64,000 nucleotides of DNA from Komarekiella atlantica HA4396-MV6 (GTDB taxonomy: Bacteria > Cyanobacteriota > Cyanobacteriia > Cyanobacteriales > Nostocaceae): assembly GCA_019359395.1 (NCBI GenBank), contig JAHHHK010000025.1, forward strand, positions 1 to 64,000, given 5' to 3'. Below the pieces are notes generated by a model. It was not told the DNA's origin, searched no databases, and worked only from the letters and a program-made list of their open reading frames with translations. Shown here in pieces: positions 2,409 to 41,541 of this stretch. The position numbers and the translations under genes are program-made. Every line of letters starts with the position of its first letter. Position 1 is the first letter of the stretch.

Positions 2409-2938
2409 GAATTGGACAAGTTTATTGGTGCAAAGGACTAATACAAAGTTGCTCGCTTTTTGTTCCGCCGCGTTGAGCATAAGCAAAAACGGCGTGGTAA
2501 AACCGAATTCTGGCAGCAGTCAAAAAAAGTACTCGTAAGACCAAAAAAGAACAACCCCAGTCTGCTTGAGATTGCAGTTTTTCCCTATTTTTCCCGAACC
2601 TCTCCCCCATAAAAAGGAATAAATTTCCTAAAACTATTGTCTAATAATGGCTGATTAATTTGAGTACATTATTAATACCTATTAATAGATGAGATATAGG
2701 TAGTGAAATAATATATGCAGTATTTGTTGAGAGTTAAATTAATAGCCGACAGTTGTCAATTAAAATCATCATTTTAAATATTAAATTTAAAATTCTAATA
2801 TCAAAGATGTAATACACTGACTTCCTGGTGGCTATTTCTAATTCTGCTATTCACAGGTTCTCTTTATTCAGTTGAGAAAACCAAGCGATGCCTAGGTTGG
2901 GCTACGCCTACGCTACAAGGTGAGACAGGAAGAAAATC
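2409..2938. other. Intergenic region upstream of nifJ
   Basis: There are 530 bases without a convincing gene. The first part is open for about 57 codons on the plus strand (ending TAA near 2610) and encodes a very basic sequence with FWQQSKKVLVRPKKNN; it has no start or recognisable family and may be a remnant. From 2620 on the sequence is A+T-rich. A short repeat, cctaggttggg followed by gctacgcctacgctac, lies at 2891-2917. Its first 11 bases recur in the element at 41.8 kb. The nifJ start codon follows gacaggaagaaaatc. Confidence 0.4.
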
Positions 2939-5900: not shown

Positions 5901-6580
5901 CAATTGCTGACTACCTGGTAAAGAAAAGCGTCTGGATTGTCGGCGGTGACGGTTGGGCTTATGACATTGACTTTGGCGGTATCGACCATGTGCTAGCCAG
6001 TGGCCGCAATGTAAACATCTTGGTAATGGATACAGAAGTATATTCTAATACAGGCGGTCAATCTTCCAAAGCCACCCCACGAGCAGCAGTTGCTAAATAT
6101 GCCGCTAGTGGCAAGCCTGCACCCAAGAAAGACTTAGGTTTAATTGCTATGACCTACGGAAATGTCTACGTAGCGAGTGTAGCTCTTGGTGCTAGGGATG
6201 AACATACCCTAAAGGCGTTCTTAGAAGCAGAGGCTTACGATGGCCCGTCCTTAATCATTGCTTACAGCCATTGCATTGCCCACGGCATCAACATGACCAC
6301 AGCGATGGATCACCAAAAATCCCTGGTAGAATCAGGTCGGTGGTTGTTGTATCGCCATAATCCTGAGTTGCAAAAACAGGGTAAAAATCCCTTGCAATTG
6401 GATATGCGATCGCCCACGCAGTCAGTAGAAAAATCAATGTACCAAGAAAATCGCTTCAAAATGCTTACCAAAAGCAAACCCGACCATGCACAGCATTTGT
6501 TAAAACTAGCGCAAACTGAAGTAAACGCTCGTTGGCAAATGTATCAATATTTAGCAGAGCGTAAACCATCCCAGTGCTGA
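2939..6580 (+). CDS. nifJ: Pyruvate:ferredoxin (flavodoxin) oxidoreductase
   Basis: This 1213-residue single-chain PFOR oxidises pyruvate with CoA to acetyl-CoA and CO2 and passes the electrons to ferredoxin or flavodoxin. It needs thiamine diphosphate and three 4Fe-4S clusters. The ligand motifs are visible: CVQCGKCVMVCP near residue 717, CTGCTICVNICP near 773, and the C-terminal CAGCGETPY near 846. The N-terminal YPITPSSAMGEWAD and the ThDP-domain segments ATGCSSIYGG and GGDGWAYDIDFGG are also typical. A low-complexity insert of about 28 residues near 354-381 carries one copy of the dispersed palindrome in frame. Another stretch near residues 640-660 (PPTINNQQSTTINPF) also looks like a linker expansion. 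No nitrogenase genes are nearby, so it may serve general fermentative metabolism or nitrogen fixation. Confidence 0.95.
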   Translation: MNKTFATIDGNEAVARVAYKLNEVIAIYPITPSSAMGEWADAWSAEGRPNLWGTIPSVVQMQSEGGAAGAVHGALQTGSLSTTFTASQGLLLMIPNFYKIAGELTSAVVHVAARSLATHALSIFGDHSDVMAARATGFALLCSASVQESQDFALIAHAVTLETRVPFMHFFDGFRTSHEVQKVKLLLDNDLRSLIHDQLVLAHRTRSLTPDRPTLRGTAQNPDVYFQAREGANPYYNACPEIVQQIMDKFGDRTGRYYQIYEYYGADDADRVIVIMGSGGETVHETVDYLNAGGEKVGVVKVRLYRPFDVQRFVAALPTSVKAIAVLDRTKEPGSAGEPLYLDVVAAVHEAWGERRAGGAGGEFLTPHSLVETRLIASLLSTPKIIGGRYGLSSKEFTPAMVKGVFDNLAQVQPKNHFTIGINDDVSHTSLSFDSNFSTEPDNVVRAMFYGLGSDGTVGANKNSIKIIGEETDNYAQGYFVYDSKKSGSMTVSHLRFGPEPIRSTYLIDKANFIGCHHWGFLERIDLLKAAVNGATLLLNSPYNADTVWENLPLKVQQQIIDKQLKLYVINASQVARESGMGGRINTIMQVCFFALAGVLPQEEAIAKIKQAIDKTYGKKGAEVVRMNLQAVDNTLANLHKVDIPPTINNQQSTTINPFPLSAPEFVRDVLGKIMSWEGDDLPVSTLPVDGIFPSGTAKWEKRNVAEEIPVWDADVCVQCGKCVMVCPHSAIRAKAYQASELVNAPPTFKSTGAKDKDFANQKFTIQVAPEDCTGCTICVNICPAKNKAEPMHRAINMAQQLPLREQERKNWDFFLSLPNPDRRQLKLNQIRQQQLQEPLFEFSGACAGCGETPYLKLLTQLFGDRSVIANATGCSSIYGGNLPTTPWTTNAEGRGPAWSNNLFEDNAEFGFGFRLSLDKQAEFAAELLQQLSGEIDEKLIHSILNAEQKSEADIWEQREKVALLQQQLNKIVTLNPNLQSKIQNLKSIADYLVKKSVWIVGGDGWAYDIDFGGIDHVLASGRNVNILVMDTEVYSNTGGQSSKATPRAAVAKYAASGKPAPKKDLGLIAMTYGNVYVASVALGARDEHTLKAFLEAEAYDGPSLIIAYSHCIAHGINMTTAMDHQKSLVESGRWLLYRHNPELQKQGKNPLQLDMRSPTQSVEKSMYQENRFKMLTKSKPDHAQHLLKLAQTEVNARWQMYQYLAERKPSQC
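4049..4076. repeat. Dispersed palindrome inserted in frame in nifJ
   Basis: This is a perfect 28-base palindrome centred on gacgcgattaatcgcgtc with gtaga/tctac arms. It reads VETRLIASLL in the nifJ frame. It sits after a G-rich low-complexity stretch (about 3990-4040), and both together form an insert compared with ordinary PFOR sequence. The same core occurs at 6581, 6611, 26245, 26275, 27352, 27391, 27430, 55412 and 55451. Confidence 0.9.
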
Positions 6581-6635
6581 GTACAGACGCGATTAATCGC
6601 ATCTGTACAAGAGACGCGATTAATCGCGTCTGTAC
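6581..6635. repeat. Two copies of the gacgcgattaatcgcgtc palindrome after nifJ
   Basis: Copy one spans 6581-6608 (one mismatch, cgcatctg) and copy two 6611-6635. Both begin or end with gtac-type arms and can fold into long hairpins directly after the nifJ stop codon, so they could act as a transcription terminator or mRNA stabiliser. A C-rich stretch follows (6650-6675). Confidence 0.85.
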
Positions 6636-6727
6636 AAAAGTCAGTATTTATTCTCCCCCTGCTTCCCCTGCCCACATCCAAGGGTTTGCTACAGTGAGAA
6701 TTATTCGGCAACCGTGAGGATTGGCAA

Positions 6728-7435
6728 ATGGTTAGAGAGTACTCACCCCAAACACAATCCAATTCGCCCCAGAAACATCTGCCTCCGCTTGAAAGTGGCG
6801 ATCGCCTGACTCGCCCTGAATTTGAGCGGCGTTATGCAGCTGCTCCCGATATTAAAAAAGCGGAACTGATTGAAGGAATCGTTTACGTGGCATCTCCCTT
6901 AAGACATGAACAGCATGGCAAACCCCACAGTCGAGTTATGACTTGGTTAGGCGTCTATCAAGCAATGACCCCCGGTGTTGACTTGAGCGATGCCCCGACA
7001 GTCAGGCTAGATTTAGATAACGAACCCCAGCCAGACGCGGTGCTGTTTATTGAATCTGCTATGGGTGGACAAACTCAATTGAGCAGCGATGGTTATATTG
7101 AAGGATCGCCTGAGTTTATTGTGGAAATTGCCGCCAGTAGCGCCGCCATTGATAGGGGTAGCAAAAAGCAGGTTTATCGCCGTAACGGGGTGCTGGAGTA
7201 CGTAATCTGGCAATCTTACGAGAATCAAATTGAATGGTTTCACCTCACCGATGGCGACTATCGATTACTATCTCCTAGTGTAGATGGCATCATTCGCTCC
7301 CAGGTGTTTCCAGGGTTGTGGTTAGCTGTGGAAGCACTGCGAAACAATCAGATGGCGCGGGTGTTGGAGGTGTTGCAGTTGGGATTAGATTCAGCTGAAC
7401 ATGGGGAGTTTGTGAAGCAATTGGAGAAGAAATAG
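6728..7435 (+). CDS. Uma2-family (DUF820) putative endonuclease
   Basis: The protein has 235 residues and belongs to the Uma2/DUF820 family, a PD-(D/E)XK nuclease-fold family greatly expanded in cyanobacteria. The expected active-site pattern is visible: Asp in PQPDAVLF, Glu in PEFIVEIAASS and Lys in the downstream KKQVYRRNGVLEYVIW segment. The biological role of the family is unsettled; proposals include restriction-like or mobile-element-associated functions. The ATG at 6728 gives the usual family length. It is convergent with the RibD-like gene on the other strand. Confidence 0.85.
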   Translation: MVREYSPQTQSNSPQKHLPPLESGDRLTRPEFERRYAAAPDIKKAELIEGIVYVASPLRHEQHGKPHSRVMTWLGVYQAMTPGVDLSDAPTVRLDLDNEPQPDAVLFIESAMGGQTQLSSDGYIEGSPEFIVEIAASSAAIDRGSKKQVYRRNGVLEYVIWQSYENQIEWFHLTDGDYRLLSPSVDGIIRSQVFPGLWLAVEALRNNQMARVLEVLQLGLDSAEHGEFVKQLEKK

Positions 7436-7495
7436 GCAGGCGATCGCTTCCATTGAACTGAGGACACTAAGCCAATAAACCCAAAATCATCGGTA

Positions 7496-8215
7496 TTACT
7501 CAGAATAAACCTTTCTCTGTGCTGAATCGGACAAATTTTTGAGTGTGCGATAGTGCAAAAACAACTCGCTTCCCATCTGGCGAGTTTCCACGAGTTCAAG
7601 TTGAGGAGCAGCACTAGGTGCAAAACCCTCTCCCTCTACTGGGCTGGGCGCACGCTGTCCCCCGTAAATAACCGGCCAAATAGTCAACCACCAATCATCA
7701 ATTCGCTCCGCCTCCACCAAAGCAGCTATTAAAGAGCCACCTCCCAAAGCCACAACTTTGCGAATACCCCGCTCTGCCATTAAGGTGTAAGCTTTATCCC
7801 AGTCTAAATCTGTATCCCCCAGATCAATTAAGTCAGCTTGCTTTTGCAGAGCCGCTGCATCAGAATTGCGTTCTAAACCAGTGCGTGTCGTAAATATCCA
7901 TCGCTCAACATCCTGGCGAAAAAAAGGGATATCTGATGGGAGATTAAGCGATCGCGATACCACACAAGTAATAGGCTGAGGAGACTGTCCGCGAACCTGA
8001 CGCGCTGCTAACAGTTCAGGATTGCGAATTGTAAAGGTTGTCCCCTCGGCTCGAATTGTCCCCGCTCCCACCAAGATTAGATCAGCAAGAGATGCTTGAT
8101 ATTCTAAGTGTGCTTGATCGGCTGGATCAGAATCGCGTGGTGCTCTAGGATCTACAGCACTAATCTTTCCATCAGCCGTCATGGCAAGAACTACGGTTGT
8201 TTGAATAGCTGTCAT
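7496..8215 (-). CDS. RibD C-terminal-domain reductase (riboflavin pathway or dihydrofolate-reductase-like)
   Basis: The 239 residues contain only the reductase domain, without the N-terminal zinc deaminase of bifunctional RibD. MTADGKIS near the N-terminus, ILVGAGTIRAEG and ALGGGSLIAALV match the NADPH-binding RibD_C/DHFR-like fold. The family reduces 5-amino-6-ribosylaminouracil 5'-phosphate in riboflavin synthesis, though single-domain paralogues may act on other substrates. A short proline/glycine-rich stretch near residues 192-202 (APSPVEGEGF) looks like a variable loop. The gene starts only 24 bases after the HLIP gene on the same strand, so co-transcription is possible. Confidence 0.75.
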   Translation of the reverse strand: MTAIQTTVVLAMTADGKISAVDPRAPRDSDPADQAHLEYQASLADLILVGAGTIRAEGTTFTIRNPELLAARQVRGQSPQPITCVVSRSLNLPSDIPFFRQDVERWIFTTRTGLERNSDAAALQKQADLIDLGDTDLDWDKAYTLMAERGIRKVVALGGGSLIAALVEAERIDDWWLTIWPVIYGGQRAPSPVEGEGFAPSAAPQLELVETRQMGSELFLHYRTLKNLSDSAQRKVYSE

Positions 8216-8239
8216 GGCTACGTTAATACGAGCAACAAT

Positions 8240-8419
8240 TTACAGGATGCCCCAAAAATGGAGGAAGCCTTGACCAGTAAAAGCTTCAATTAAGATAACA
8301 GATAAAAAACCAATCATTGCTAAGCGACCGTTCCAATTTTCACTTTGAGGAGTGAATCCAAGAGGCAAAGCATTGGGGTCTTGTGAAGGAGTAGGCGTAG
8401 TTTTCTTAAAACCTGACAT
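8240..8419 (-). CDS. High-light-inducible protein (HLIP, small CAB-like)
   Basis: The protein is 59 residues with a single membrane helix carrying the chlorophyll-binding signature [12 protein letters not shown], followed by a short hydrophobic C-terminus. HLIPs bind chlorophyll and carotenoid and protect photosystem assembly intermediates in the thylakoid membrane under excess light. The start at 8419 is preferred over the longer open frame because AGGAG stands 8 bases upstream and the N-terminus then matches typical HLIPs. The RibD-like gene follows on the same strand. Confidence 0.88.
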
Positions 8420-8885
8420 GTAAAAGCTCCTGTATATTGCGTTGTCTAAGTTGCGACTGTAGGTAATATAGTGCAATAGATAATTAAGAAAATATAGTAG
8501 TGAAATCCACCCGTATAGTTTGCCAGGGTATCTCAAAATCAGTAAGCTGTGGCGATCGCGTCAAAATCTCATTCACCTGCTTGGGCGTTGCATGAATACT
8601 GGACTTTGTGTAGGGATTTAGTCAAAGTGGGTGATAGGACGCTGAAAAATAAGCACAAGATTGTTCGCTTTTGTGTCTAATGGCTCAGGTAAAAACTGTC
8701 CAAAGTTCTGTATAAATATACTGCAACCGTAGTTTTTCAAACGGTGTTTTCTTAGCTACATATACAAAACTACTTTGGCTTTAGGAAGCGTCAGTCGTTC
8801 GGTGCTGACCCTACAACCTTTTGTTCAGCAGGTAAAACGCGGTTCAGATTTAAGGCAGAAATTCCTTTTTGAAAGGAGAATGGTG
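8420..8885. other. Intergenic region between the HLIP and PPOX genes
   Basis: This divergent spacer should hold promoters for both flanking genes. It contains one HIP1-like gcgatcgc near 8551 and is otherwise A+T-rich. I see no RNA gene or palindrome. The frame upstream of the PPOX gene is open from 8775, but no ribosome binding site supports an earlier start. Confidence 0.4.
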
Positions 8886-9335
8886 ATGTTAGATATCGAT
8901 GAAATGAGTTTGAAGGAAATACAAGAGCTTTTGAAAGAAGTGGGACACGGACACCTTGGTTGTGTCTTCAAAGGGCATCCTTACGTTGTACCGATGCACT
9001 ACTATCTCCAAGGCTCAGACATTTACCTTTTCACCACCGAAGGCATGAAGACGCAAGCGATGGACGAAAATCCAGAAGTTTGCCTCCAGATTGAAGAAGT
9101 GCATGACCCAGCACACTGGCGGAGTGTGATAGTAACAGGTCGAGTTGAGCGCATCACCACGCAGCCAGACATTGATCGAGCTATGCACTTTATTAAAGAA
9201 CGGAATCCAACGCTTTCGCCTGCAATTAATCGTACCTGGGTCGATAGTTGGGGGCGCACGGAGGTGATTGCTATCTTCCGCATTCATTCCAGCGAGATGA
9301 GTGGACGGACAACTACTGGAGTGAGTAGCAAGTAA
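8886..9335 (+). CDS. Pyridoxamine 5'-phosphate oxidase-like (PPOX/FMN-binding) protein
   Basis: A protein of about 149 residues with the split beta-barrel flavin-binding fold: GHGHLGCVFKGHPYVVPMHY near the N-terminus, FTTEGMKTQAMDENPEVCLQ in the middle and WRSVIVTGRVERI after it. This subgroup (related to NimA and PNPOx-like proteins) binds FMN or F420 and reduces small molecules; the substrate here is unknown. The ATG at 8886 is favoured because AAAGGAG lies 7 bases before it, while the ATG at 8880 is too close. The next gene starts 46 bases downstream on the same strand. Confidence 0.75.
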   Translation: MLDIDEMSLKEIQELLKEVGHGHLGCVFKGHPYVVPMHYYLQGSDIYLFTTEGMKTQAMDENPEVCLQIEEVHDPAHWRSVIVTGRVERITTQPDIDRAMHFIKERNPTLSPAINRTWVDSWGRTEVIAIFRIHSSEMSGRTTTGVSSK

Positions 9336-9381
9336 GCATTCGTCGCCGCAGTCTCAGTCCCGACTCAGTTTAAGGAGTTCA

Positions 9382-9711
9382 ATGAGCATGGTGGGCAACT
9401 TATTGCAGTGTGAGTATCTTGGTTGGGGGAAATTAGAGTCGTTTCGATCAAGGTCTTTATCCGAGAATGAGGCGTTAATTTTCACGGCGATTGCGGGAAC
9501 CGCTCCGGTATTAATTCGAGGATTTCTCAATTGTCTGCGTTCTCCAGAACTCCAAGCAAAAATTCCTCAGCAATTTTCTGAAAATGACGTAGCAGGAGTC
9601 ATGGTGGAAATGGTCAGAACGCTGCCGGAAAGCCTGTTGCAGGAGTGGGCGAACCAATCCAACACCGATCAAACTATGGTTTGTGCGATCCTACGCTGGG
9701 CAATAAACTAA
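9382..9711 (+). CDS. Conserved-looking hypothetical protein
   Basis: This 109-residue protein has no motif I recognise. It is mostly alpha-helical by appearance, without a signal peptide or membrane segment. AAGGAG stands 4 bases before the ATG at 9382, so translation is likely. It follows the PPOX gene closely on the same strand and may form a two-gene unit with it. Confidence 0.6.
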   Translation: MSMVGNLLQCEYLGWGKLESFRSRSLSENEALIFTAIAGTAPVLIRGFLNCLRSPELQAKIPQQFSENDVAGVMVEMVRTLPESLLQEWANQSNTDQTMVCAILRWAIN

Positions 9712-10025
9712 TGGATTTGCGACCATCAGAGAAACACGGTTTTCGATTCAATACCAATGGATAGCTTTCAAACTACCGCCCTAACCTGTAACCAGAGCGG
9801 TATAACAATTTAGCTTATATGGAATTTTTTCTGGGTAATGCCTGAATTGGGCTATTATCGAGGATTTTTCCGGGGTATTTACCTCATAGCGGACATTATT
9901 AAGACTTTTTTCGTATAATATTCCTGTTACAGAACATTATCGAGCTTTTGTAGCAATTGTCTTGAAGTTCAATAAATTTCCCCATTCCTTTTAACCTTCA
10001 AAACAATCGCTACCCATGTTAAGGA
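9712..10025. other. Intergenic region with no recognised gene
   Basis: The sequence is A+T-rich and has stops in all frames. Two loosely similar stretches, gggctattatcgagg and gaacattatcgagc, lie at about 9849 and 9931 and may be decayed repeats. No hairpin followed by T residues was found after the 9382 gene. Confidence 0.3.
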
Positions 10026-10184
10026 TTATTTCCTGGCAATTACCCACACTGCATGAACAATCCCCGGAATATAGCCCAAAAACGTCAAAAGTATATTAAT
10101 CCAAAAATCTTTACCTATTCCTACTTGCAAAAATACTCCCAGAGGTGGTAGGAAAATGGCACACAAAAGACGAACTAAATCCAT
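10026..10184 (-). CDS. Pmp3/YqaE-family small membrane protein
   Basis: This 52-residue peptide begins MDLVRLLCAIFLPPLGVFLQ and ends GIVHAVWVIARK, with two hydrophobic helices and the family signature of Pmp3/YqaE (UPF0057): an early LPPLGVFLQVG and a later LLTFLGYIPGIVHA. In yeast and plants members affect membrane potential and salt tolerance; in bacteria they are stress-associated. An excellent ribosome binding site, TAGGAGG, stands 6 bases before the ATG at 10182-10184. It appears to be a single-gene unit. Confidence 0.88.
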   Translation of the reverse strand: MDLVRLLCAIFLPPLGVFLQVGIGKDFWINILLTFLGYIPGIVHAVWVIARK

Positions 10185-10323
10185 TTGAACCTCCTAATTA
10201 ATCTCAAAAAGAACATCTTTCTGCTGAAGTGATTTATCACTGTTTCAGCATATTTGTACTTTTCAAAGATAACATTGCCCTTCTTTATGAAGATTACCGC
10301 TAAGATGCGGTAAACCACACTGA

Positions 10324-10671
10324 TTAACCACCACTAATTTTGGCCTTATAGCCGAGTTTAGTCAAAATCTCAACAATTTTTTGCTTGTGATCGCCCTGAA
10401 TTTCAATTTCGTTATCTTTGACTGTACCACCTGTGCCGCACTGAGTTTTCAACTGTTTCACCAAATCTGCTAAGGTTTCTGGTTTGACTTGAAAACCGCT
10501 AATTACAGTGACAGTTTTGCCTTTGCGTCCTTTGCGGGAGGCTTGCACTTTGAGATTTTGTTGTTGCGGAGGTAATTCTGGAATTGGTCTTTCTGTAGCG
10601 GCGGAGTTCTCGTTGCCAAATTCACGGTAGACAAAGCTTTTGTCGGAAGATTTGGAATTGGAGGAAGACAT
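10324..10671 (-). CDS. SUI1/YciH-family translation initiation factor
   Basis: The protein has 115 residues. The C-terminal 70 form the SUI1 (eIF1-like) domain, with the core FQVKPETLADLVKQLKTQ, CGTGGTVKDNEIEIQGDH and a final LTKLGYKAKISGG. Bacterial members (YciH) bind the 30S subunit and influence start-codon fidelity. The N-terminal 45 residues are polar and probably disordered. The gene stands alone between the Pmp3 gene and the trpB leader. Confidence 0.88.
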   Translation of the reverse strand: MSSSNSKSSDKSFVYREFGNENSAATERPIPELPPQQQNLKVQASRKGRKGKTVTVISGFQVKPETLADLVKQLKTQCGTGGTVKDNEIEIQGDHKQKIVEILTKLGYKAKISGG

Positions 10672-11047
10672 AAATCTTTATTAAGAAAAAATCAGAGGCA
10701 GTGGAAACCGCTATGTAACCATTCTGCTGGTAAATCAATTTCTAGACTAACATTACCAATCCATAGCAGTGGACTAAAAAGTTACCCAATTCTGGACATC
10801 AAGCAATACGGTTCGGATCAGCAGAGGAGTCAATAGTCATAGTCAAAAATCTTTCCCTTATCTCCTTCATCTCCCCCTGCCCCGGTTGTTGAGCGTAGTC
10901 GAAACACTACTCGCTCATTCCCAGTCACCAGTCCCTTTTACAAGAATTACTTCTCAAGACTCAAAACCGTTTCATCAGTAAGACATCGTATCCTATATGG
11001 TTCAGACTTTCCTATAATTAAGTCATTCCTGTGATTGAAATCAGCCT
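10672..11047. other. Intergenic region upstream of trpB with a dispersed repeat
   Basis: The region contains a C-rich tract near 10855-10883 and, at 10884-10908, a 25-base sequence beginning ggttgttgagcgtagtcg that recurs at 57348-57372 inside cobN. No trp leader peptide or attenuator could be recognised before trpB. Confidence 0.6.
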
Positions 11048-12289
11048 GTGACTACCACTCCCCTATCTCCCAGTTCCCCATCAACTGCTCAGGTTCCCGA
11101 TATACAAGGACGTTTTGGACGCTTTGGCGGTAAGTACGTCCCGGAAACACTGATGCCTGCTCTTGCTGAACTAGAAACAGCTTATCAGCAATACCGCAAT
11201 GACCCTGGTTTTCAAGCAGAATTACAACAATTGTTGCGGGACTATGTAGGACGTGCGACGCCGTTGTATTTCGCTGAACGTCTGACTGCTCATTATGCTC
11301 GACCTGATGGTACGGGGCCACAAATCTATTTGAAGCGTGAAGACTTGAATCACACTGGCGCTCACAAAATCAACAATGCCCTCGGTCAGGTGTTATTGGC
11401 GAAGCGCATGGGCAAGCAGCGGATTATTGCAGAAACGGGTGCTGGACAACATGGAGTAGCGACCGCAACTGTTTGCGCTCGTTTTGGGCTGGAATGCGTA
11501 ATTTACATGGGTGTTCACGATATGGAACGCCAAGCCCTAAATGTGTTCAGAATGCGTTTGATGGGTGCAGAAGTATGTCCCGTGGCTGCGGGAACAGGCA
11601 CGCTCAAGGATGCAACTTCTGAAGCGATTCGAGATTGGGTAACAAATGTGGAGACAACTCACTACATCCTGGGTTCAGTCGCAGGGCCGCATCCTTACCC
11701 GATGATGGTACGAGATTTCCATGCGGTGATTGGACAAGAAACTCGCGCTCAAGCAATCGAAAAGTGGGGTGTGTTGCCCGATATTTTGATGGCTTGTGTG
11801 GGGGGTGGTTCCAATGCGATGGGACTATTCTATGAGTTTTTAAATGAGCCTTCTATCCGGTTAATTGGGGTTGAAGCAGCGGGAGAAGGTGTTAATACTG
11901 AAAAACACGCAGCTACCTTGACAAAAGGACGCATTGGTGTATTGCACGGAGCAATGAGCTATCTGCTGCAAGATGAAGATGGGCAAATAATTGAAGCACA
12001 CTCAATTAGTGCTGGGTTAGATTATCCCGGTGTTGGGCCAGAACATAGCTATTTAAAAGATACTGGTCGCGCTGAATATTATAGTGTGACAGATGAAGAT
12101 GCTTTGGCGGCGTTCCAGCGATTGTCTCGGCTGGAGGGAATTATCCCAGCGCTGGAAACTGCCCATGCGATCGCCTACCTAGAAACCTTATGTCCCCAAC
12201 TTACTGGCAGTCCTCGGATTGTGATTAATTGCTCAGGACGCGGTGACAAGGATGTACAAACGGTAGCGAAGTTTTTGAACCCTGCATAA
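11048..12289 (+). CDS. trpB: Tryptophan synthase beta chain
   Basis: The 413-residue PLP enzyme joins indole and serine to form tryptophan in complex with TrpA. The PLP lysine lies in [13 protein letters not shown] near residue 107, and the phosphate-binding loop [10 protein letters not shown] and GRGDKDVQ near the C-terminus are intact. The start is a GTG at 11048; the first 20 residues are a variable Ser/Pro/Thr-rich tail. TrpA is not adjacent, and trpC lies 20 kb away on the other strand, which fits the scattered trp genes of cyanobacteria. Confidence 0.96.
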
Positions 12290-12320
12290 ATATACGTAAA
12301 ATGTCTGAGATGAAACCCAG

Positions 12321-13478
12321 ATGGCTCAACAATTCCAACATGCAATGCTACCGCAACCGACTCACGACGAGTTGGCACGCCAAAACTTTGTCCAAAGTCT
12401 AAGAATGCACATTTTCAGGAATCTTCTTCCTGGCAATAAGGTAGTTTATGAAAAACGAGTCAAACCTAAGTTTGAACAAGAACATCAGCGTCCTCCCCAA
12501 AACCGTTATGAAATTAGGGAGATAATGCAGCACGAACCCCACTACCGCTGGTTAAATGCCCTCAAGCGAATTAACCAGGAAATGTTGTGGGAATCCGTCA
12601 ATGCAAGTGTTGACAGACATCTACCAGACTTGATTGAGCGTGCCAAAGACAAGGGTAGTGAACTGGGTACTTTAACACTCGACCCAAATTTGCAAATACC
12701 TATTTATCAAAAAGCTGTAGACATTCACTGTATGCCAGGAGGATATCACAGTGAATTCACAGCTGATGATGTAGCTGCTGGTGCAACCTACGATCGCGGA
12801 GTTTATGTTTATGGACTCGGTTGGTTGGGGCCGCTAAACGATGACATGGGGCTATCTATAGTCCAAAACTACCTCCAGCCAGAATATCCCAACTTCCGAC
12901 CCCAAAAAATTCTCGACATGGGATGTTCTATTGGCAATAGCACATTGCCCTACGTAGATGCCTACCCCGATGCAGAAGTCTATGCCATAGATATCGGCGC
13001 ACCAATGCTACGTTACGCCCATGCACGAGCAGAAGTCTTAGGTAAGCAGGTACACTTTTCACAGCAAAATGCTGAACACACTAACTTCCCAGATGAATCA
13101 TTTGACTTAGTGGTTTCCCACATTTTATTGCATGAAATTCCCCCGCCAGCTGTCCGTAAGGTTATGCAAGAGTGTTATCGGCTTCTAGCTCCCGGCGGCA
13201 TGATGCTTCATGTTGAAGCACCCTTGTATCGTCACATGGATGCTTATAGCCAGTTCATGTACGATGGGGAAACCGTTAACAATAACGAACCATTTTGGAG
13301 TGCTGTACGCAATCTGGACTTGGTGGCGCTAGCTGCGGAAGCTGGTTTTGCAGCAGATCAGGTATTCGAGAAGTTTGTGCCTAACGGCGCATGGAAAGCA
13401 AAAGTAGCCAATAACAATTCTCAAAATGGCAATTCAGGCAATCGGGGCACTTGGTTTGTGGTTGCTGCAACTAAGTAG
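12321..13478 (+). CDS. Class I SAM-dependent methyltransferase with a long N-terminal extension
   Basis: The protein has 385 residues. The N-terminal 190 have no recognised motif. The C-terminal part is a UbiE/Methyltransf_11-type domain with motif I ILDMGCSIGNSTL, motif II YAIDIGAP, and the later SFDLVVSHILLHEI and RLLAPGGMMLHVE. The substrate is unknown; the extension suggests a specialised or secondary-metabolite substrate. The next gene begins 11 bases after the stop, so the two probably form an operon. Trp synthesis ends 31 bases upstream, so read-through from trpB is possible too. Confidence 0.75.
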   Translation: MAQQFQHAMLPQPTHDELARQNFVQSLRMHIFRNLLPGNKVVYEKRVKPKFEQEHQRPPQNRYEIREIMQHEPHYRWLNALKRINQEMLWESVNASVDRHLPDLIERAKDKGSELGTLTLDPNLQIPIYQKAVDIHCMPGGYHSEFTADDVAAGATYDRGVYVYGLGWLGPLNDDMGLSIVQNYLQPEYPNFRPQKILDMGCSIGNSTLPYVDAYPDAEVYAIDIGAPMLRYAHARAEVLGKQVHFSQQNAEHTNFPDESFDLVVSHILLHEIPPPAVRKVMQECYRLLAPGGMMLHVEAPLYRHMDAYSQFMYDGETVNNNEPFWSAVRNLDLVALAAEAGFAADQVFEKFVPNGAWKAKVANNNSQNGNSGNRGTWFVVAATK

Positions 13479-35075: not shown

Positions 35076-35256
35076 CTGAACCTATTCCTTGCTGCACCGC
35101 CAAGTTACTTTACCGAAAAGAAGAGTAGCAGGGGAGGCAGTAAAATAGCAACCAGCAATTCTTCATTCTTACGTAGAGATACTCATGTAAAATTTGTAAG
35201 AAATAGTATACTAATATAATTAGTTGCAAAACTTACATAAAGTTTCAGTAAAGAAT

Positions 35257-35460
35257 ATGCGAGCTATTGGCCCCTCAAACCAAATACTGTTAGAAACAGT
35301 GTTGGAGCGCGTATTTACTATTCGCAGAATTACACGCCAGGATCAGCAGTTGTTAATGTCAACATTACTGTCCAAAGAAGGTTTAAACGAAGAAGAACAA
35401 CTGCAAATCAGCCGAGTTTTTGATGCTTTACAAAAAGGATTACTCAAGGTAGTGGATTGA
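35257..35460 (+). CDS. Small hypothetical protein
   Basis: The 67 residues begin MRAIGPSNQILLETVLERVF. It is soluble, charged and probably all-helical. No family is recognised, though such short proteins are common in cyanobacteria. The ATG at 35257 is preferred over a TTG at 35224. It is convergent with the lasso-cluster exporter, six bases away, and is not obviously part of that cluster. Confidence 0.6.
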   Translation: MRAIGPSNQILLETVLERVFTIRRITRQDQQLLMSTLLSKEGLNEEEQLQISRVFDALQKGLLKVVD

Positions 35461-35465
35461 ATATG

Positions 35466-37283
35466 TTACCGATACTGTTGGGCTTGGGTTTCAAATAAGT
35501 AGGCATAAGTACCGCCCATCTGCATCAATTCTTCATGGGTTCCACTCTCAACAATCGTGCCACCTGCCATAACATAAATGCGATCGGCCATTTTGACAGT
35601 AGATAAACGATGGCTGATTAGGATCGCAGCTTGATTTTTGATGAGTTGGCGAAACTGTTCAAATACTTCGTATTCAGCCTTGGGATCCATTGCACTGGTG
35701 GGTTCATCCAAAACAATCACTTGCGAGTTGCGGAGAAATGCTCGCGCCAAAGCTACCTTTTGCCACTGCCCAATACTCAGTTCTTCTCCTTGATCAAACA
35801 ACTTCCCTAGAACGGTATCATAACCTTGGGGTAATTTGGCAATCACGTCATCAGCACCAGAGCGACGCGCCGCAGCAATAATGCTTTCTCGCTCCGCTGG
35901 TAACTCGATATTGCCCAACCAAATATTTTCCTGAGCTGTGAAGTGGTACTTGGCATAGTCTTGAAAAATCACGCTGATTTCCCGCCGCAAGTCTGCCATT
36001 CTATATTGGCTGAGGTCAATGCCATCAATAGTAATGCTGCCAGTAGTTGGGTCGTACAAGCGGCATAAAAGTTTAATTAAAGTAGTTTTTCCAGAACCAT
36101 TTTCTCCCACAAGCGCCACTACTTCCCCTGGTCGAATTGTCAGATTGATATCTTCAAGTGCCTGACGAGTAGTGGTAGCGTATTGGAAACTCACTTTGTT
36201 AAAAACGATGCCAGTTTGCATCGGTCGAGGAATAGGCTGGGGATTTAAAGGTTCTACTAACTTAGGTTGTAAGTCAAGAAACTCGTAGAGGTTAGCAAGA
36301 AATAGATTATCCTCATACAAATTAGACAAACTAACTAATAGACTTTTAATATCATTTTGTCCTCGTTGTAATGCTTGGTGATAGAGTACCAAATCACCCA
36401 AACGTAGGACACCCTGGATAGCTTGATAGACTATGAAAGCATAAACACCAAAGATGAAAATACCCGCTATAGCTTCCGCAATCAAATTAGCTATAGAGCG
36501 TTTGCTGAAAATGGCTATTTTTTCTTTATATATCTGCCGCCGGATCCGAAGATACCATTGACTGAAGTATTCACCTAAATCAAACAAGCGAATTTCTTTA
36601 GCGTACTGGTCTGATGTCAGCATCCAAGCAAGGTACATTGCTTGCCGTTCCGGCTGCGTGCGTTTACGCTGCCAACGATACATGACACGACTGTATTTTA
36701 CCCGTACTAGCAGAGCCGGAATGGCTGCTACAAAAAGAATGCCGATAATTCCCCAGTGGAGTGAGAGCAGTAAACCCACCATCGCCACTAAGGAAATACT
36801 ACTTTGACCAACTTGTGCTAAACGATTGAGAATTTCAGGAGGACGGTAAGGAGCTTCTCGTTGCGCTCGTTGCAGGGCGTCGAAGTATTGGGCGTTTTCG
36901 TAGTACTCTAAGTCAGTAGCAATTGATTTAGCATTAATAATTCCCTGCATGTAGTCAGTCACTTGCTGAGAATGGGCAGTAACCACTAATTCTGTTAGTG
37001 AACTGCAAATACTGCTTACAAGAGTGACTGCACCAGCCAAGATAACCCAGAGGATGACATTACGAAAGGCGACTGTTTTATCAGCAACGTTGAGGTTGGC
37101 AACTACTGCATCTATGATTAGTTTGGTGAGATAGATTGATATTACGGGTAGTATACCTTGGATAACTAATAGTACTATGCGAGCGATCGTCCAACCGGGA
37201 CTACTTTGCCACACCAGGCGTAATGCAGGCACAAGATGTAAAGTTTGCTGAATTTTTTGTTTGATGTTTTTGCCTGCTCGCAT
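35466..37283 (-). CDS. ABC transporter of the lasso peptide cluster (exporter D)
   Basis: This 605-residue half-transporter has six membrane segments in the first 340 residues and a C-terminal ATPase with Walker A GENGSGKTTLIKLL, signature LSIGQWQKVALARA and Walker B VIVLDEPTSAMDP. It has no C39 peptidase domain. Lasso peptide D proteins export the mature peptide and give self-immunity. It lies 57 bases downstream of the kinase gene on the same strand and is the last gene of the cluster. General lipid or drug exporters of this type look alike, so the role rests on context. Confidence 0.88.
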   Translation of the reverse strand: MRAGKNIKQKIQQTLHLVPALRLVWQSSPGWTIARIVLLVIQGILPVISIYLTKLIIDAVVANLNVADKTVAFRNVILWVILAGAVTLVSSICSSLTELVVTAHSQQVTDYMQGIINAKSIATDLEYYENAQYFDALQRAQREAPYRPPEILNRLAQVGQSSISLVAMVGLLLSLHWGIIGILFVAAIPALLVRVKYSRVMYRWQRKRTQPERQAMYLAWMLTSDQYAKEIRLFDLGEYFSQWYLRIRRQIYKEKIAIFSKRSIANLIAEAIAGIFIFGVYAFIVYQAIQGVLRLGDLVLYHQALQRGQNDIKSLLVSLSNLYEDNLFLANLYEFLDLQPKLVEPLNPQPIPRPMQTGIVFNKVSFQYATTTRQALEDINLTIRPGEVVALVGENGSGKTTLIKLLCRLYDPTTGSITIDGIDLSQYRMADLRREISVIFQDYAKYHFTAQENIWLGNIELPAERESIIAAARRSGADDVIAKLPQGYDTVLGKLFDQGEELSIGQWQKVALARAFLRNSQVIVLDEPTSAMDPKAEYEVFEQFRQLIKNQAAILISHRLSTVKMADRIYVMAGGTIVESGTHEELMQMGGTYAYLFETQAQQYR

Positions 37284-37340
37284 ATTTGAAATTTATACAT
37301 TAATAAAATTTTAAATTTAGATTAAGCTAAATCACAAAAT

Positions 37341-38267
37341 CTATGCTGTGACTGGTTGGTTATCACTTGCCAAATCTTCTTCTACCAAACGTGCTACATC
37401 AGGCAACAAGTCTAGGGAACGGGGTCGTTTCAGATTATAGATAGGTAGATTGTTAACTAAACTAGTACATTGATGCAAATGCACAGATGCCTTAGCACTC
37501 TGGATAAATTGCTTACCAACTAACATGGGGATATAAGAATTAGCAATTAGCTGAGTTATGGCTTCTGTAGGTGTGAGAGGTTTGATTTGAAGAGTTGAAC
37601 CTACAGAAAGTACATAGATTCGCGTGATGGTTAGGGGTGTTCGTAAAAAGTTATCGATAGTGGGGCGATCGCGTTTCTCAGCGTCAGGATGGATCTTCCT
37701 TAATGTTTCTGGATTATCTCCTAATGCGGCTGTGGCTGCGTCGGGCCAAAGCTTGATTCGCGGAAATCCTGGAATTAATATGGGGGCGATCGCACTGTCA
37801 ACATCCACAGCAGCTACATCATCTGCCATCAGTTTATGCCCCCGTCCATAGAGAGTTGCTGCCATAGTAGATTTACCTTGCCCCGATCGCCCCAAAAAAA
37901 CGACAGCATTACCATCCACTGCGATCGCGCTACCATGCAGCACCAAAAACTGCCGTTGATGAAGCAACATTCCTAAGACTGCTCCTAACAGAGGTAGACG
38001 AATAACGCTTTCTTCGACACCTGGAAGCGGTTCGATAATAACTTCCTTTCCAGAACGTACTAAAAATTTACCTACTACTTTCCAGTACAAGTAAGTATAT
38101 TCACCATCAATCTGAAAGTAACTCCATGATGGGGCAGGTGTAGGTAATAACCAATTGACTTCTCCATAGCGGATAACTACATCTGCTTCTATATGTGTTG
38201 AACTTTGTAGCTCCGGTAAAGGTAAAGCAGAGCAGATATTCAAGCTATAAGCAGTGTAACTATACAT
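37341..38267 (-). CDS. HPr-kinase-like protein, candidate lasso precursor kinase
   Basis: The 308-residue protein carries an HprK/P-type nucleotide-binding core: Walker A FLGRSGQGKSTMAATL near residue 130, and the downstream acidic KLMADDVAAVD. The N-terminal 100 residues differ from true HPr kinase, as in the kinases of lasso clusters in Firmicutes (PadK, ThcoK), which phosphorylate the C-terminal Ser of the precursor. The precursor encoded just upstream here ends in Ser, which fits. This activity is inferred, not shown by sequence alone. It is on the same strand as the other cluster genes. Confidence 0.8.
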   Translation of the reverse strand: MYSYTAYSLNICSALPLPELQSSTHIEADVVIRYGEVNWLLPTPAPSWSYFQIDGEYTYLYWKVVGKFLVRSGKEVIIEPLPGVEESVIRLPLLGAVLGMLLHQRQFLVLHGSAIAVDGNAVVFLGRSGQGKSTMAATLYGRGHKLMADDVAAVDVDSAIAPILIPGFPRIKLWPDAATAALGDNPETLRKIHPDAEKRDRPTIDNFLRTPLTITRIYVLSVGSTLQIKPLTPTEAITQLIANSYIPMLVGKQFIQSAKASVHLHQCTSLVNNLPIYNLKRPRSLDLLPDVARLVEEDLASDNQPVTA

Positions 38268-38488
38268 CTCATAAACTCCATATTCAGTAGCTATAAGTTA
38301 CTTTCCTACACAAACTAATTTTTTATTTAAATTTGAGTAAATACCTCTGCTTAGTTGTAACCTAAACAGAGGTAAATCAATAATCTGGACTATCTAAGCT
38401 TGTGAAGCCTATATATCAGATTGACTGGTAGATAATTAGGCAAAACTTGAGTATCCTATATCTACCTATTTATCGTTCCAAACTCCTG

Positions 38489-38635
38489 CTAGGAGAAAGT
38501 TACATCGTCTTTGGGAGTCGAGATAGGAAATTCTTTATCTGTAAACAAGCCCAAGCCAAGACCTTGAGTCAAGACTTCGACTTCGCCATAAACAGTCAGT
38601 TTGGGCTGGGTGTAAGGCTTCTTGTTAGCAGTCAT
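38489..38635 (-). CDS. Lasso peptide precursor (A)
   Basis: The 48-residue frame lies between the cyclase and kinase genes. Residues 1-24 form the leader: the segment YTQPKLTVYGEVEVLTQ fits YxxPxLxxxGxxxxxTx exactly, with Tyr8, Pro11, Leu13, Gly17 and Thr23 at the penultimate position. The core (25-48) starts GLGLGLFTD, so core Gly1 can close a nine-residue macrolactam with Asp9. The tail is K-E-F-P-I-S-T-P-K-D-D-V-T-F-S with a C-terminal Ser. GGAG stands about 7 bases before the ATG. My hand-calculated monoisotopic mass is about 2565.3 Da for the lasso form and 2645.3 Da with one phosphate. I have no database comparison. Confidence 0.9.
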   Translation of the reverse strand: MTANKKPYTQPKLTVYGEVEVLTQGLGLGLFTDKEFPISTPKDDVTFS

Positions 38636-38841
38636 AATTTTCTCCATTGTTTTTTGGTGTTTTGTTTACTTTCAAGGTTGGCTCTATTCAGAACCAAGAA
38701 ACAGCTAAGTGTGATATCACGCCATCTAGCTGGGTAACAATCAAACTCGCTGTGCTGTTGGATGTTGCCTAGAAGAGAACAGCCAACAGGACAATGATTT
38801 GACATATCATGGAAACTTTTCTAGAAGATGAAGACGTTGAT

Positions 38842-40821
38842 TTAAACTCCTTTTTCGGCAAATTCATTAGATCTATTCTGTGCAGCATACTGCAACCATA
38901 AAGCTAAAGAAACAGCTATCCAAATTGTGTGGACATCCTTTCCTGCTGTTGGAGATTGTGAAGAGATAAATCTTTGATATGTCTGCTTGAGGTCAGTAAC
39001 ATCTATATATTCTGCAAGGACTCCTAAATCATCCAGAATTAACTTATCCAAACGCTCTCGCTCAAAAGACAATAAACCATGGACGAGATTTGGAGAAAAA
39101 TTTGCTTTGCCTCGACGCCATTGCACTTCTATCGGCAAAACATTAGCCATTGCGCGGCGCATGACGACCCGATTCCAGCCCATGTGCAGCTTTTGCTCAG
39201 CAGGCAAGGAGAGGCAGAACTCTACTAAACGCTTGTCCCAAAAAGGGTAGCGTTGTTCAATAGAAAAGGCAGCACAAGTTTTGTCTTGCATCTCAGCAGC
39301 AAATGACACTAAACCTTGGGTGACATTGCGGTAGTGTCGTTCTCTTTCGTTTTGGCCAAAGTTACTTTGGATTTTTTGCCAAGCCTGATAGCGTTCTTGG
39401 AGACCTACACGCTGGACAAACTCAGCATTCAATATGGCACTCCAGGCAGGCTGGTTAGCCGATTGGTTATCTTGGCGAGAGCTTAACCGAGTAAGTGCTT
39501 GCCAACTCCGTTGAAAAAGCCTTAGAGGTGGGTATTTGGAAAATGTCGGTTTAATTCCATATTGTTTTACATAACTCCATAGCCATCTCCAAAAATTCAC
39601 ATTGAAAGTTTTAGCTAGTTCTTTAATTTCTCTTGCCAAAGCTAGCCAGCGACCTGCTCGTGCTAGTTCACTTAAGTAACCGTAACCATCCGATACGACG
39701 TTATCGCCATCAAAACCATCGAAGACAACACGAACACCTTGCGCTTTAATCGCTTCATACAAAGCCCAACTCATAGACCAATTGGGTGCGTAAAAGGCCT
39801 CATCTTGATGCCAAAACATTTGGTCTATGTTCTTCAAAGGACTAATTTGATCTCCTTTGATATAGTGTGGCTCAAGTCCACCCTGCGCTAAAACTGCGTT
39901 GATATATGGGCGTTCATCACATTCAGCCAACTCATCAAACACTGCCGAGAATGTATGCAGACGCCGCTCTCCATCTTCAGCAAGCAGTTTCCGTGCCATA
40001 CAAGTAATCGATGAAGAATCTAGTCCACCGCTCAAATGAGAGCCAATAGGAAAGGCGCTACGCAAGCGGCACTGCACTGCTTTGCTAAAAATTTCACGAA
40101 ATGCTTCAGCATACTCTTCATCTGAACCTAAAAGCAATTCCCGATTAGGATCAATAGACCAGTATGATTGTAATTTTATTCCTTCAAGGCTTACTGTCAT
40201 CCTGTGAGCAGGAGGTAGTCTGAAGATATTCTTGTATGAGGTAATATCTGCCTCGTGAAACATTGATGCTAGATAGTCACCTATCCTCACTTCATTAATC
40301 TGACGAGGAACATCTGGCACACAAAAGATAGCTTTGATTTCACTAGCAAAAATGAAAGCTTGTTCAGACGCATAGTAATAGAAAGGTTTAATGCCAAAAT
40401 GATCTCTGGCACAAAAGATTATTTGCTTTTGCATATCCCAAATAGCAAAGGCAAAATCACCTAATAAATTTTCTGGGCATTGCTCACCCCATTTTTCGTA
40501 AGCAGCCAGCACTAGCTGGCTATCAGTTATTTTTTCAGGTGGATAGTTATTAAGCTGTAATGTATAAATTAACTCATCTCTGTTATCTATACGAAGATCT
40601 GCTGTAATCACTAAATCTTCAGTTTGATTAACCAGAGGTAACTTTTCCAACAACGATTCAGGAGTAGTCCATAACATACTATGACCCAACCCAACAGATC
40701 CAGCGCACCAGGCATCTAACCCATCTGGCCCCCTATGGGCAAGAATATTGACCATATCCTTGAACTGCTGATAATTAACTAGCTTGCCATCTAGGTTGTA
40801 GATGCCGATAATACCACTCAT
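38842..40821 (-). CDS. Lasso cyclase (asparagine-synthetase-like, C)
   Basis: The 659-residue protein is built like AsnB: an N-terminal glutaminase-like domain (about 1-200) and a C-terminal ATP-dependent synthetase domain with the PP-loop SHLSGGLDSSSITCMA near residue 265. Residue 2 is Ser (MSGIIGIYN) where functional glutaminases have Cys, so ammonia is not made. Lasso cyclases adenylate the core Asp/Glu and close the macrolactam. The ATG overlaps the B2 stop by four bases (ATGA), which indicates coupled translation. Ordinary asparagine synthetase is excluded by Ser2 and context. Confidence 0.92.
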   Translation of the reverse strand: MSGIIGIYNLDGKLVNYQQFKDMVNILAHRGPDGLDAWCAGSVGLGHSMLWTTPESLLEKLPLVNQTEDLVITADLRIDNRDELIYTLQLNNYPPEKITDSQLVLAAYEKWGEQCPENLLGDFAFAIWDMQKQIIFCARDHFGIKPFYYYASEQAFIFASEIKAIFCVPDVPRQINEVRIGDYLASMFHEADITSYKNIFRLPPAHRMTVSLEGIKLQSYWSIDPNRELLLGSDEEYAEAFREIFSKAVQCRLRSAFPIGSHLSGGLDSSSITCMARKLLAEDGERRLHTFSAVFDELAECDERPYINAVLAQGGLEPHYIKGDQISPLKNIDQMFWHQDEAFYAPNWSMSWALYEAIKAQGVRVVFDGFDGDNVVSDGYGYLSELARAGRWLALAREIKELAKTFNVNFWRWLWSYVKQYGIKPTFSKYPPLRLFQRSWQALTRLSSRQDNQSANQPAWSAILNAEFVQRVGLQERYQAWQKIQSNFGQNERERHYRNVTQGLVSFAAEMQDKTCAAFSIEQRYPFWDKRLVEFCLSLPAEQKLHMGWNRVVMRRAMANVLPIEVQWRRGKANFSPNLVHGLLSFERERLDKLILDDLGVLAEYIDVTDLKQTYQRFISSQSPTAGKDVHTIWIAVSLALWLQYAAQNRSNEFAEKGV

Positions 40822-41255
40822 AGTCTGTTTCCTGGCAAAGATGGCAGTTGGGTAAAGCGTGAAAGATCTGTTAGATAACCAATTACAACTTTTCCTTGAC
40901 TTTCAACCCACGCATGGGCTTCTAGTTTCCCTTCGTCACTTTTGGCAACTCCTATACGGAGTTCTGGTAAGTAACCTCGTCGAGTCATGAGTACCTGGCA
41001 AGCTAAAGCACGGGCGAGACACTTAGCGCCACTGGGCATACAACGAGTACTTACATTAACAGCCCAGATAATTTTGCTAAGGGAGGTTTGGTCTAGTTTA
41101 GTGTTTGGCTGACTAATGCTACCCAGGATTTGCCGTAAGGTTTGAAATGGCAGTAACCACAATCCTAATTTGATTAATCCCAACAAAATAAAGGTATTTA
41201 TCAAAAGATAGCGATCTTTGTTTGTGAGGCGCAGCAATTTAAGCACCTGCTTCAT
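40818..41255 (-). CDS. Lasso leader peptidase (B2, transglutaminase-like)
   Basis: This 145-residue protein matches the lasso peptide biosynthesis B2 family, with a Cys-His-Asp triad: Cys in SGAKCLARALACQ, His in LEAHAWVESQG and Asp in GYLTDLSRF. It has a hydrophobic N-terminal segment (about 15-40). B2 removes the leader just after the penultimate Thr region. Its start overlaps the end of the PqqD-like gene by 17 bases and its stop overlaps the cyclase start, so the three genes form one operon. Confidence 0.93.
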   Translation of the reverse strand: MKQVLKLLRLTNKDRYLLINTFILLGLIKLGLWLLPFQTLRQILGSISQPNTKLDQTSLSKIIWAVNVSTRCMPSGAKCLARALACQVLMTRRGYLPELRIGVAKSDEGKLEAHAWVESQGKVVIGYLTDLSRFTQLPSLPGNRL

Positions 41256-41541
41256 GTCTTATCTCGATTAGTCCTTTTGTTGCTAAGTCTTCAAGCAATA
41301 CTAAAATGTCAGCTTCACATGCTTGGGAATCAACTTCATACTCTGCTAACAAGGCATCCCGAATTTCTTTTACAGTTTTCGGAGCTTGAATCAGATTCCA
41401 AATGCTTACTCCTACTTGATTTAAACCGTAGTAAACCCCGGAGTTGATATCAAGAATAACTGCTTCTCCTTGCAGTTCAGAAAAAATCTGATTCTTGGCT
41501 GCTACTACCTTAGGAAAATTGGTCGATAAGTTTACAGGCAT
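41239..41541 (-). CDS. PqqD-like RiPP recognition element (lasso B1)
   Basis: The 100-residue protein has a PqqD-type RiPP recognition element fold: EAVILDINSGVYYGLNQVGVSIWNLI followed by TVKEIRDALLAEYEV and a C-terminal helix. B1 proteins bind the leader peptide at the Tyr/Pro/Leu motif and deliver it to B2. It is the first gene of the operon on the minus strand, so the main promoter should lie above 41541. Confidence 0.92.
   Translation of the reverse strand: MPVNLSTNFPKVVAAKNQIFSELQGEAVILDINSGVYYGLNQVGVSIWNLIQAPKTVKEIRDALLAEYEVDSQACEADILVLLEDLATKGLIEIRHEAGA

Follow-up and report, generated by a model that had tools for sequence, protein, structure and literature searches.

The window analysed here, 64,000 nucleotides of Komarekiella atlantica HA4396-MV6 (contig JAHHHK010000025.1, positions 1 to 64,000 of the forward strand), carries on its minus strand six genes that, judged by their sequences, are one intact lasso-peptide operon with a kinase and an exporter. 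We propose, with a probability of roughly 0.85, that this operon makes a lasso peptide. By analogy with lasso kinases described elsewhere, the product is probably phosphorylated, mainly on the C-terminal serine of its core (Ser24). A sequence-only reading of the window had described the six genes, B1, B2, C, A, K and D, at the same positions and on the same strand, and the family matches agree with it. Its lasso operon with precursor, kinase and exporter is borne out, while the novelty that it claimed was overstated, since NCBIfam models of the system exist and the gene order C-A-K is the usual one. The lasso family of the window is already catalogued in cyanobacteria, and the operon is ordinary and well supported.

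41239-41541 (-): B1, PqqD-like leader-binding protein (RRE), 100 amino acids; PF05402 74.2 bits, NF033536 80.9 bits (cut-off 80)
40818-41255 (-): B2, transglutaminase-like leader peptidase, 145 amino acids; NF033537 115.2 bits (cut-off 33)
38842-40821 (-): C, AsnB-like lasso cyclase, 659 amino acids, with Ser2; NF033535 (lass_lactam_cya) 971.6 bits (cut-off 525)
38489-38635 (-): A, lasso precursor, 48 amino acids (24 leader and 24 core); NF033528 (lasso_cyano) 30.4 bits
38335-38375 (-): conserved A-K intergenic block of 41 bases, the same in five genomes
37341-38267 (-): K, HprK-like kinase, 308 amino acids; Hpr_kinase_C PF07475 34.9 bits (cut-off 33.3)
35466-37283 (-): D, ABC exporter, 605 amino acids; ABC_tran PF00005 125.3 bits

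The operon and its precursor

B1 with its RRE, the peptidase B2 and the AsnB-like C, the genes that mark lasso biosynthesis, are encoded together, and C scores well over the NF033535 cut-off (971.6 versus 525 bits). B1 and B2 overlap, B2 and C overlap by 4 bases, and A stands isolated, with about 200 bases of spacing on each side; all six reading frames are uninterrupted over their full length. B2 had been read earlier as a Cys-His-Asp peptidase; its Cys79 and His114 are unchanged in 53 of 53 B2 rows. Ser2 of C had also been singled out. The residue is correct, and it was rejected as a special feature: where the aligned C rows have a letter at that position (65 rows; 3 further rows have gaps), all but one have Ser (64). 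The nearest named relatives of C, at 93-96% identity, come from Komarekiella delphini-convector, Nostoc sp. B(2019) and Nostoc sp. MG11; the first two also carry a core identical to that of the window. Among 72,556 plasmid records, four contained relatives of C at E <= 1e-40, all below 60% identity and none of them cyanobacterial.

With the ATG at 38635 taken as residue 1, the leader of the precursor has Tyr8, Pro11, Leu13, Gly17 and Thr23 (Y-x2-P-x-L-x3-G with Thr at position -2). The 24-residue core begins with Gly, carries Asp9 as its acidic residue within core positions 7-9, and ends in Ser, as paeninodin-type cores do. The leader residues, Gly1 and Asp9 had been named from the letters alone and are all present, and the predicted masses of about 2565.3 and 2645.3 Da were reproduced when recomputed from the core (2565.300 Da for the lasso, 2645.267 Da for its phosphorylated form). 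Translation from a second in-frame ATG, at 38647, would yield 52 amino acids. We consider the ATG at 38635 the better start, because GGAG lies six bases upstream of it (none precedes the ATG at 38647), because a related locus, L043, retains the GGAG and lacks the upstream ATG, and because the three precursors of locus L038 begin at the equivalent position. The 48-codon start given before thus holds.

A strict leader rule (Y-x2-P-x-L-x3-G-x5-T, followed by D/E at about core position 7-9) fits one of 1174 open-reading-frame-like segments in the window, namely A, and none in 60 dinucleotide shuffles. With a looser rule there are two matches in the window (shuffle mean 0.15). Over the 48 codons, synonymous to non-synonymous changes relative to the window are 8:2 in L035, 10:1 in L036, 5:0 in L037 and 14:0 in L043, the non-synonymous ones all falling outside the core. 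The core protein is identical in these five genomes, with core DNA that differs from the window by 3, 5, 2 and 8 bases, respectively (4, 5, 3 and 9 when the stop codon is counted). Because of this identical core with varying DNA and the sole strict match in the window, we conclude from sequence comparison that A is a real precursor and that its core is under purifying selection.

For a wider comparison, 388 genomes were sampled from the host's order; the cyclase model was matched at E <= 1e-100 in 62 of them and over its cut-off in 47. Loci were extracted at every listed site over the cyclase cut-off, plus 2 of the 18 listed sites below it. After removal of four copies of other loci, the set held 70 C genes including named loci, 65 of them cyanobacterial (L044-L048 belong to non-cyanobacterial phyla by their record titles). 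A same-strand kinase lies within 3.5 kb of 63 of the 70 C genes, and in 59 of them a precursor also lies between C and this kinase, with more than one precursor in 18 of the 59. For the cyanobacterial C genes alone, 59 have a kinase, 57 a precursor between C and K, and 17 several precursors. Seven C genes lack such a kinase; among these, two lie at contig ends, one has a kinase on the opposite strand and in one a kinase precedes C. That the precursor sits between C and the kinase, earlier taken as odd, is true and common, so an unusual gene order was ruled out. Precursors were counted in 95 of 100 rows, after omission of one duplicate row, due to the split C gene of L056, and four rows judged spurious by eye (L048, L074, L077, L100); the L047 precursor, situated before C, stands outside these counts. 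The leader spacing is the same in 92 of the 95, and Asp or Glu occurs at core 7-9 in 78.

The kinase, the hairpin and a proposed pathway

K contains His111, a Walker A motif at 126-134 (with Lys132 and Ser133) and Asp149-Asp150. His111, Lys132, Ser133 and Asp150 are present in 58 of 58 aligned kinases and Asp149 in 57. These are the His, P-loop Lys and Ser, and Asp-Asp of lasso kinases, which are required in other members according to the passages on them in PMC9266682 and PMC10368454. The AlphaFold2 model of K (predicted local distance difference test, pLDDT, 92.9) matched PEPCK and HprK chains in Foldseek with a probability of 1.00 and template modeling scores by query of 0.3-0.6, in line with an HprK/PEPCK fold. 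K and its relatives are apparently active kinases. As PMC9266682 describes them in part, PadeK, ThcoK, SyanK and PsmK modify a C-terminal Ser, and excerpts of PMC9266682 and PMC8498205 say the same of paeninodin-kind lasso kinases.

Between A and K, 41 consecutive bases are identical when the window is aligned with its four closest relatives. The block holds a hairpin at 38342-38374 with a 13-bp stem and a 7-base loop, whose predicted fold has an energy of -20.4 kcal/mol and a z of -6.4, for a stretch chosen after it had been seen. In L038 the stem is similar and the loop differs. A dispersed repeat was ruled out, as the hairpin has a single match in the genome when up to 3 mismatches are allowed.

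We infer the following pathway. B1 would bind the leader via Tyr8, Pro11, Leu13 and Gly17, and K would phosphorylate the linear precursor, most likely at the core C-terminal Ser24. B2 would then cleave after residue 24, which places Thr23 at position -2, and C would activate Asp9 and couple it with Gly1. This would close a 9-membered ring, with a tail of 15 residues threaded through it, and D would export the product. A probable role of the conserved hairpin downstream of A is to protect the A transcript or to terminate part of it, which would yield more A than K and D.

The phosphorylation site and other explanations

Several observations weigh against parts of this pathway. Of the 89 distinct cores, 19 have Ser as their last residue and the other 70 lack it there; the cyanobacterial loci alone have a terminal Ser in 17 of 86, and those with a kinase found in 17 of 83. 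Because Ser makes up 10% of the core residues, a terminal Ser is in excess yet far from a rule, and because most distinct cores beside these kinases lack it, the terminal-Ser rule does not hold across the kinase family. Further, BsfK phosphorylates Ser3, as reported in the relevant passage of PMC10368454. The window-like cores (L035-L039, L043, L085, L095) share L/T-D9-x-x-F-x-x-x-T-P-x-x-x-L/V-T-F/I-S; in two of the three L038 precursors and in the precursor of the second L039 cluster, LTFS is followed by extra residues (GTF, ETPMRG), so its Ser need not be terminal. The model NF033528, which aligns to the A leader over model positions 2-24 of 35, gives 30.4 bits (E 2.8e-7), 2.6 bits under its cut-off of 33, and at that cut-off, used alone, it could therefore miss A. 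A strong hairpin occurs in only 26 of the 58 listed clusters (those beating 20 of 20 mononucleotide shuffles; 3 were too short to measure), and it was accordingly rejected as a feature common to the relatives. L043, though its hairpin is identical, did not beat all 20 shuffles, and the 7 terminator-like sites given by a consensus scan do not include the hairpin.

The operon could thus be real while K modifies another core hydroxyl (Thr8, Ser15, Thr16 or Thr22), or modifies Ser24 regardless of whether it is terminal, an alternative that differs from our proposal only in the site. It would account for the 70 cores without a terminal Ser in a set where 63 of 70 C genes adjoin a kinase, and for the 3-6 further residues after LTFS in L038 and L039; the modification of Ser3 by BsfK and of a Ser3 by LppK, as the passages on these enzymes have it, also favors it. 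Against this, the window core itself ends in Ser and K belongs to a kinase group in which 11 of 16 clusters are classed as terminal-Ser, and we consider another site unlikely, if a serious competitor. A silent or decayed operon without any product appears improbable. In its favor, the examined stretch of the relative L043 showed no ABC gene; against it, the six frames of the window are open throughout and the precursor shows signs of purifying selection in four comparisons. The low NF033528 score would also fit a chance frame with the true precursor elsewhere. We regard this as hardly credible, given the single strict leader match in 1174 segments with none in 60 shuffles, the precursors at the equivalent place in 57 of 65 cyanobacterial C genes, the exclusively synonymous changes in the core, and the next and only other NF033528 match in the genome, which reaches 13 bits (E 1.13).

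We next consider how core type is distributed over the kinases. The motif G/D-S-x-D/N occurs in the tails of 34 of the 70 non-Ser cores, compared to 8.2 on average and at most 17 in 500 shuffles, and in 2 of the 19 terminal-Ser cores (shuffle mean 1.3). It was noticed by eye and then tested on those same cores; all four internal-motif variants that were examined exceed their shuffles in non-Ser cores, and one is reported. On a tree of 55 kinases, of the quick kind and with long branches flagged, terminal Ser takes 9 changes versus 15.5 in shuffles, with 0 of 500 shuffles as low. The window K falls in a group of 16 rows (support 93) with 11 terminal-Ser clusters and one with the internal motif. 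A second group of 24 rows (support 86) has one terminal-Ser cluster and 18 with the motif, and the remaining 15 rows lie outside both. Fisher tests give P ~2e-5 for each group, a value that ignores shared ancestry for groups chosen after the tree had been seen. A test of terminal Ser versus motif on independent pairs had only 6 pairs and no power (on average 1.1 pairs opposite as expected, 0.1 reverse and 4.8 the same; median P of 1).

A tendency of kinase type to go with core type is suggestive only, because branch supports are below 95, the rows are kin, the motif was seen by eye beforehand and the pair test is powerless. We tentatively put forward, as a possibility that we would not favor, that one HprK-like family is split, with the window group modifying a C-terminal or nearly C-terminal Ser and the other an internal tail Ser in G/D-S-x-D/N. 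In L038, three precursors stand beside one kinase, with LTFS internal in two and terminal in one; the terminal-Ser rule is therefore directly testable there.

Related loci and known lasso systems

L043, with its identical core, has neither an exporter gene nor the MTAP gene that flanks the window operon within the stretch examined, and its operon therefore seems to lie at a different genomic place. A 78-amino-acid open reading frame at 35224-35460 (+) faces the exporter gene of the window; it has no NCBIfam or Pfam match and is conserved in seven loci, each with a relative of the MTAP gene. A more distant core (LDADFPVGTP...RFSP) is found in Desulfocapsa (L047, 6516-6662), where it ends in RFSP, the precursor stands before C and the same enzymes are reordered. 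This likeness may reflect spread of the lasso cluster between phyla.

Three further lasso-type loci lie outside the window in the host genome (assembly of 7.8 Mb in 80 contigs). L110 (G000:C66:160000-175000), at 4314-8272, encodes a fused B1-B2, an AsnB-like C and a 2OG-Fe(II) oxygenase-like protein. Its candidate precursor of 52 amino acids, at 8114-8272 (-), has the aromatic-rich end GYWGYWDDWGGYYS and Val, not Thr, near the presumed cleavage site. L108 (G000:C61:4000-16969), at 6994-12443, has a cyclase of the albusnodin/ikarugamycin family, B1, B2, an ABC gene and a candidate precursor with a tail very rich in Arg, His and Gly. A cyclase of the same family, B1 and B2 are also found in L109 (G000:C16:54000-69000), at 2927-8411; there an ABC gene lies on the other strand, and two candidate precursors, nearly identical to each other, follow downstream on the opposite strand.

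The earlier claim of a precursor of unannotated type does not stand, as NCBIfam already models a cyanobacterial lasso precursor (NF033528) and cyclase (NF033535). The window resembles this system in its cyclase over the cut-off, its matched leader and the gene order of most relatives; its precursor differs in scoring 2.6 bits under the NF033528 cut-off, and its core differs from those of most relatives. With the paeninodin-type clusters of PadeK, ThcoK, SyanK and PsmK, as portrayed in parts of PMC9266682 and PMC8498205, it shares B1, B2, C, an exporter, an HprK-like kinase with His-Lys-Asp-Asp and a core with a terminal Ser, whereas the peptides described there, compared by description, come from Firmicutes and Proteobacteria. 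The Bsf lasso peptide of Bradymonas sediminis likewise has an HprK-like kinase with the same conserved residues, and BsfK acts on the linear precursor; according to the same excerpts of PMC10368454, however, Bsf has Ile at position -2, is modified on Ser3 in the ring and has a core ending in Asp, unlike the Thr at -2 and the terminal Ser of the window. The cluster of Cyanocohniella sp. LLY, reported from genome reading, also combines cyanobacterial B1, B2, C and a precursor; its description in the relevant part of PMC9332814 mentions no cluster kinase.

Words beginning with "cyanobacteri-" are absent from the main text of the lasso-phosphorylation papers PMC9266682, PMC10368454 and PMC8498205. 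A literature search for the phrase "cyanobacterial lasso" gave no match, although an earlier mention in the original paeninodin kinase or RODEO papers is possible, and six short peptide strings, of which one came from the window core, had no match in the literature text searched.

The product of the window would be an uncharacterized cyanobacterial lasso peptide with exact masses to look for. Beyond this single peptide lies a puzzle: nearly all of these operons retain an apparently active kinase, yet 70 of the 89 distinct cores lack the terminal Ser modified by the first lasso kinases. If one kinase family does act in two modes, many of these peptides would be phosphorylated at a site unreported for lasso peptides in the literature examined, and phosphorylation would be a near-universal step in these cyanobacterial lasso peptides.

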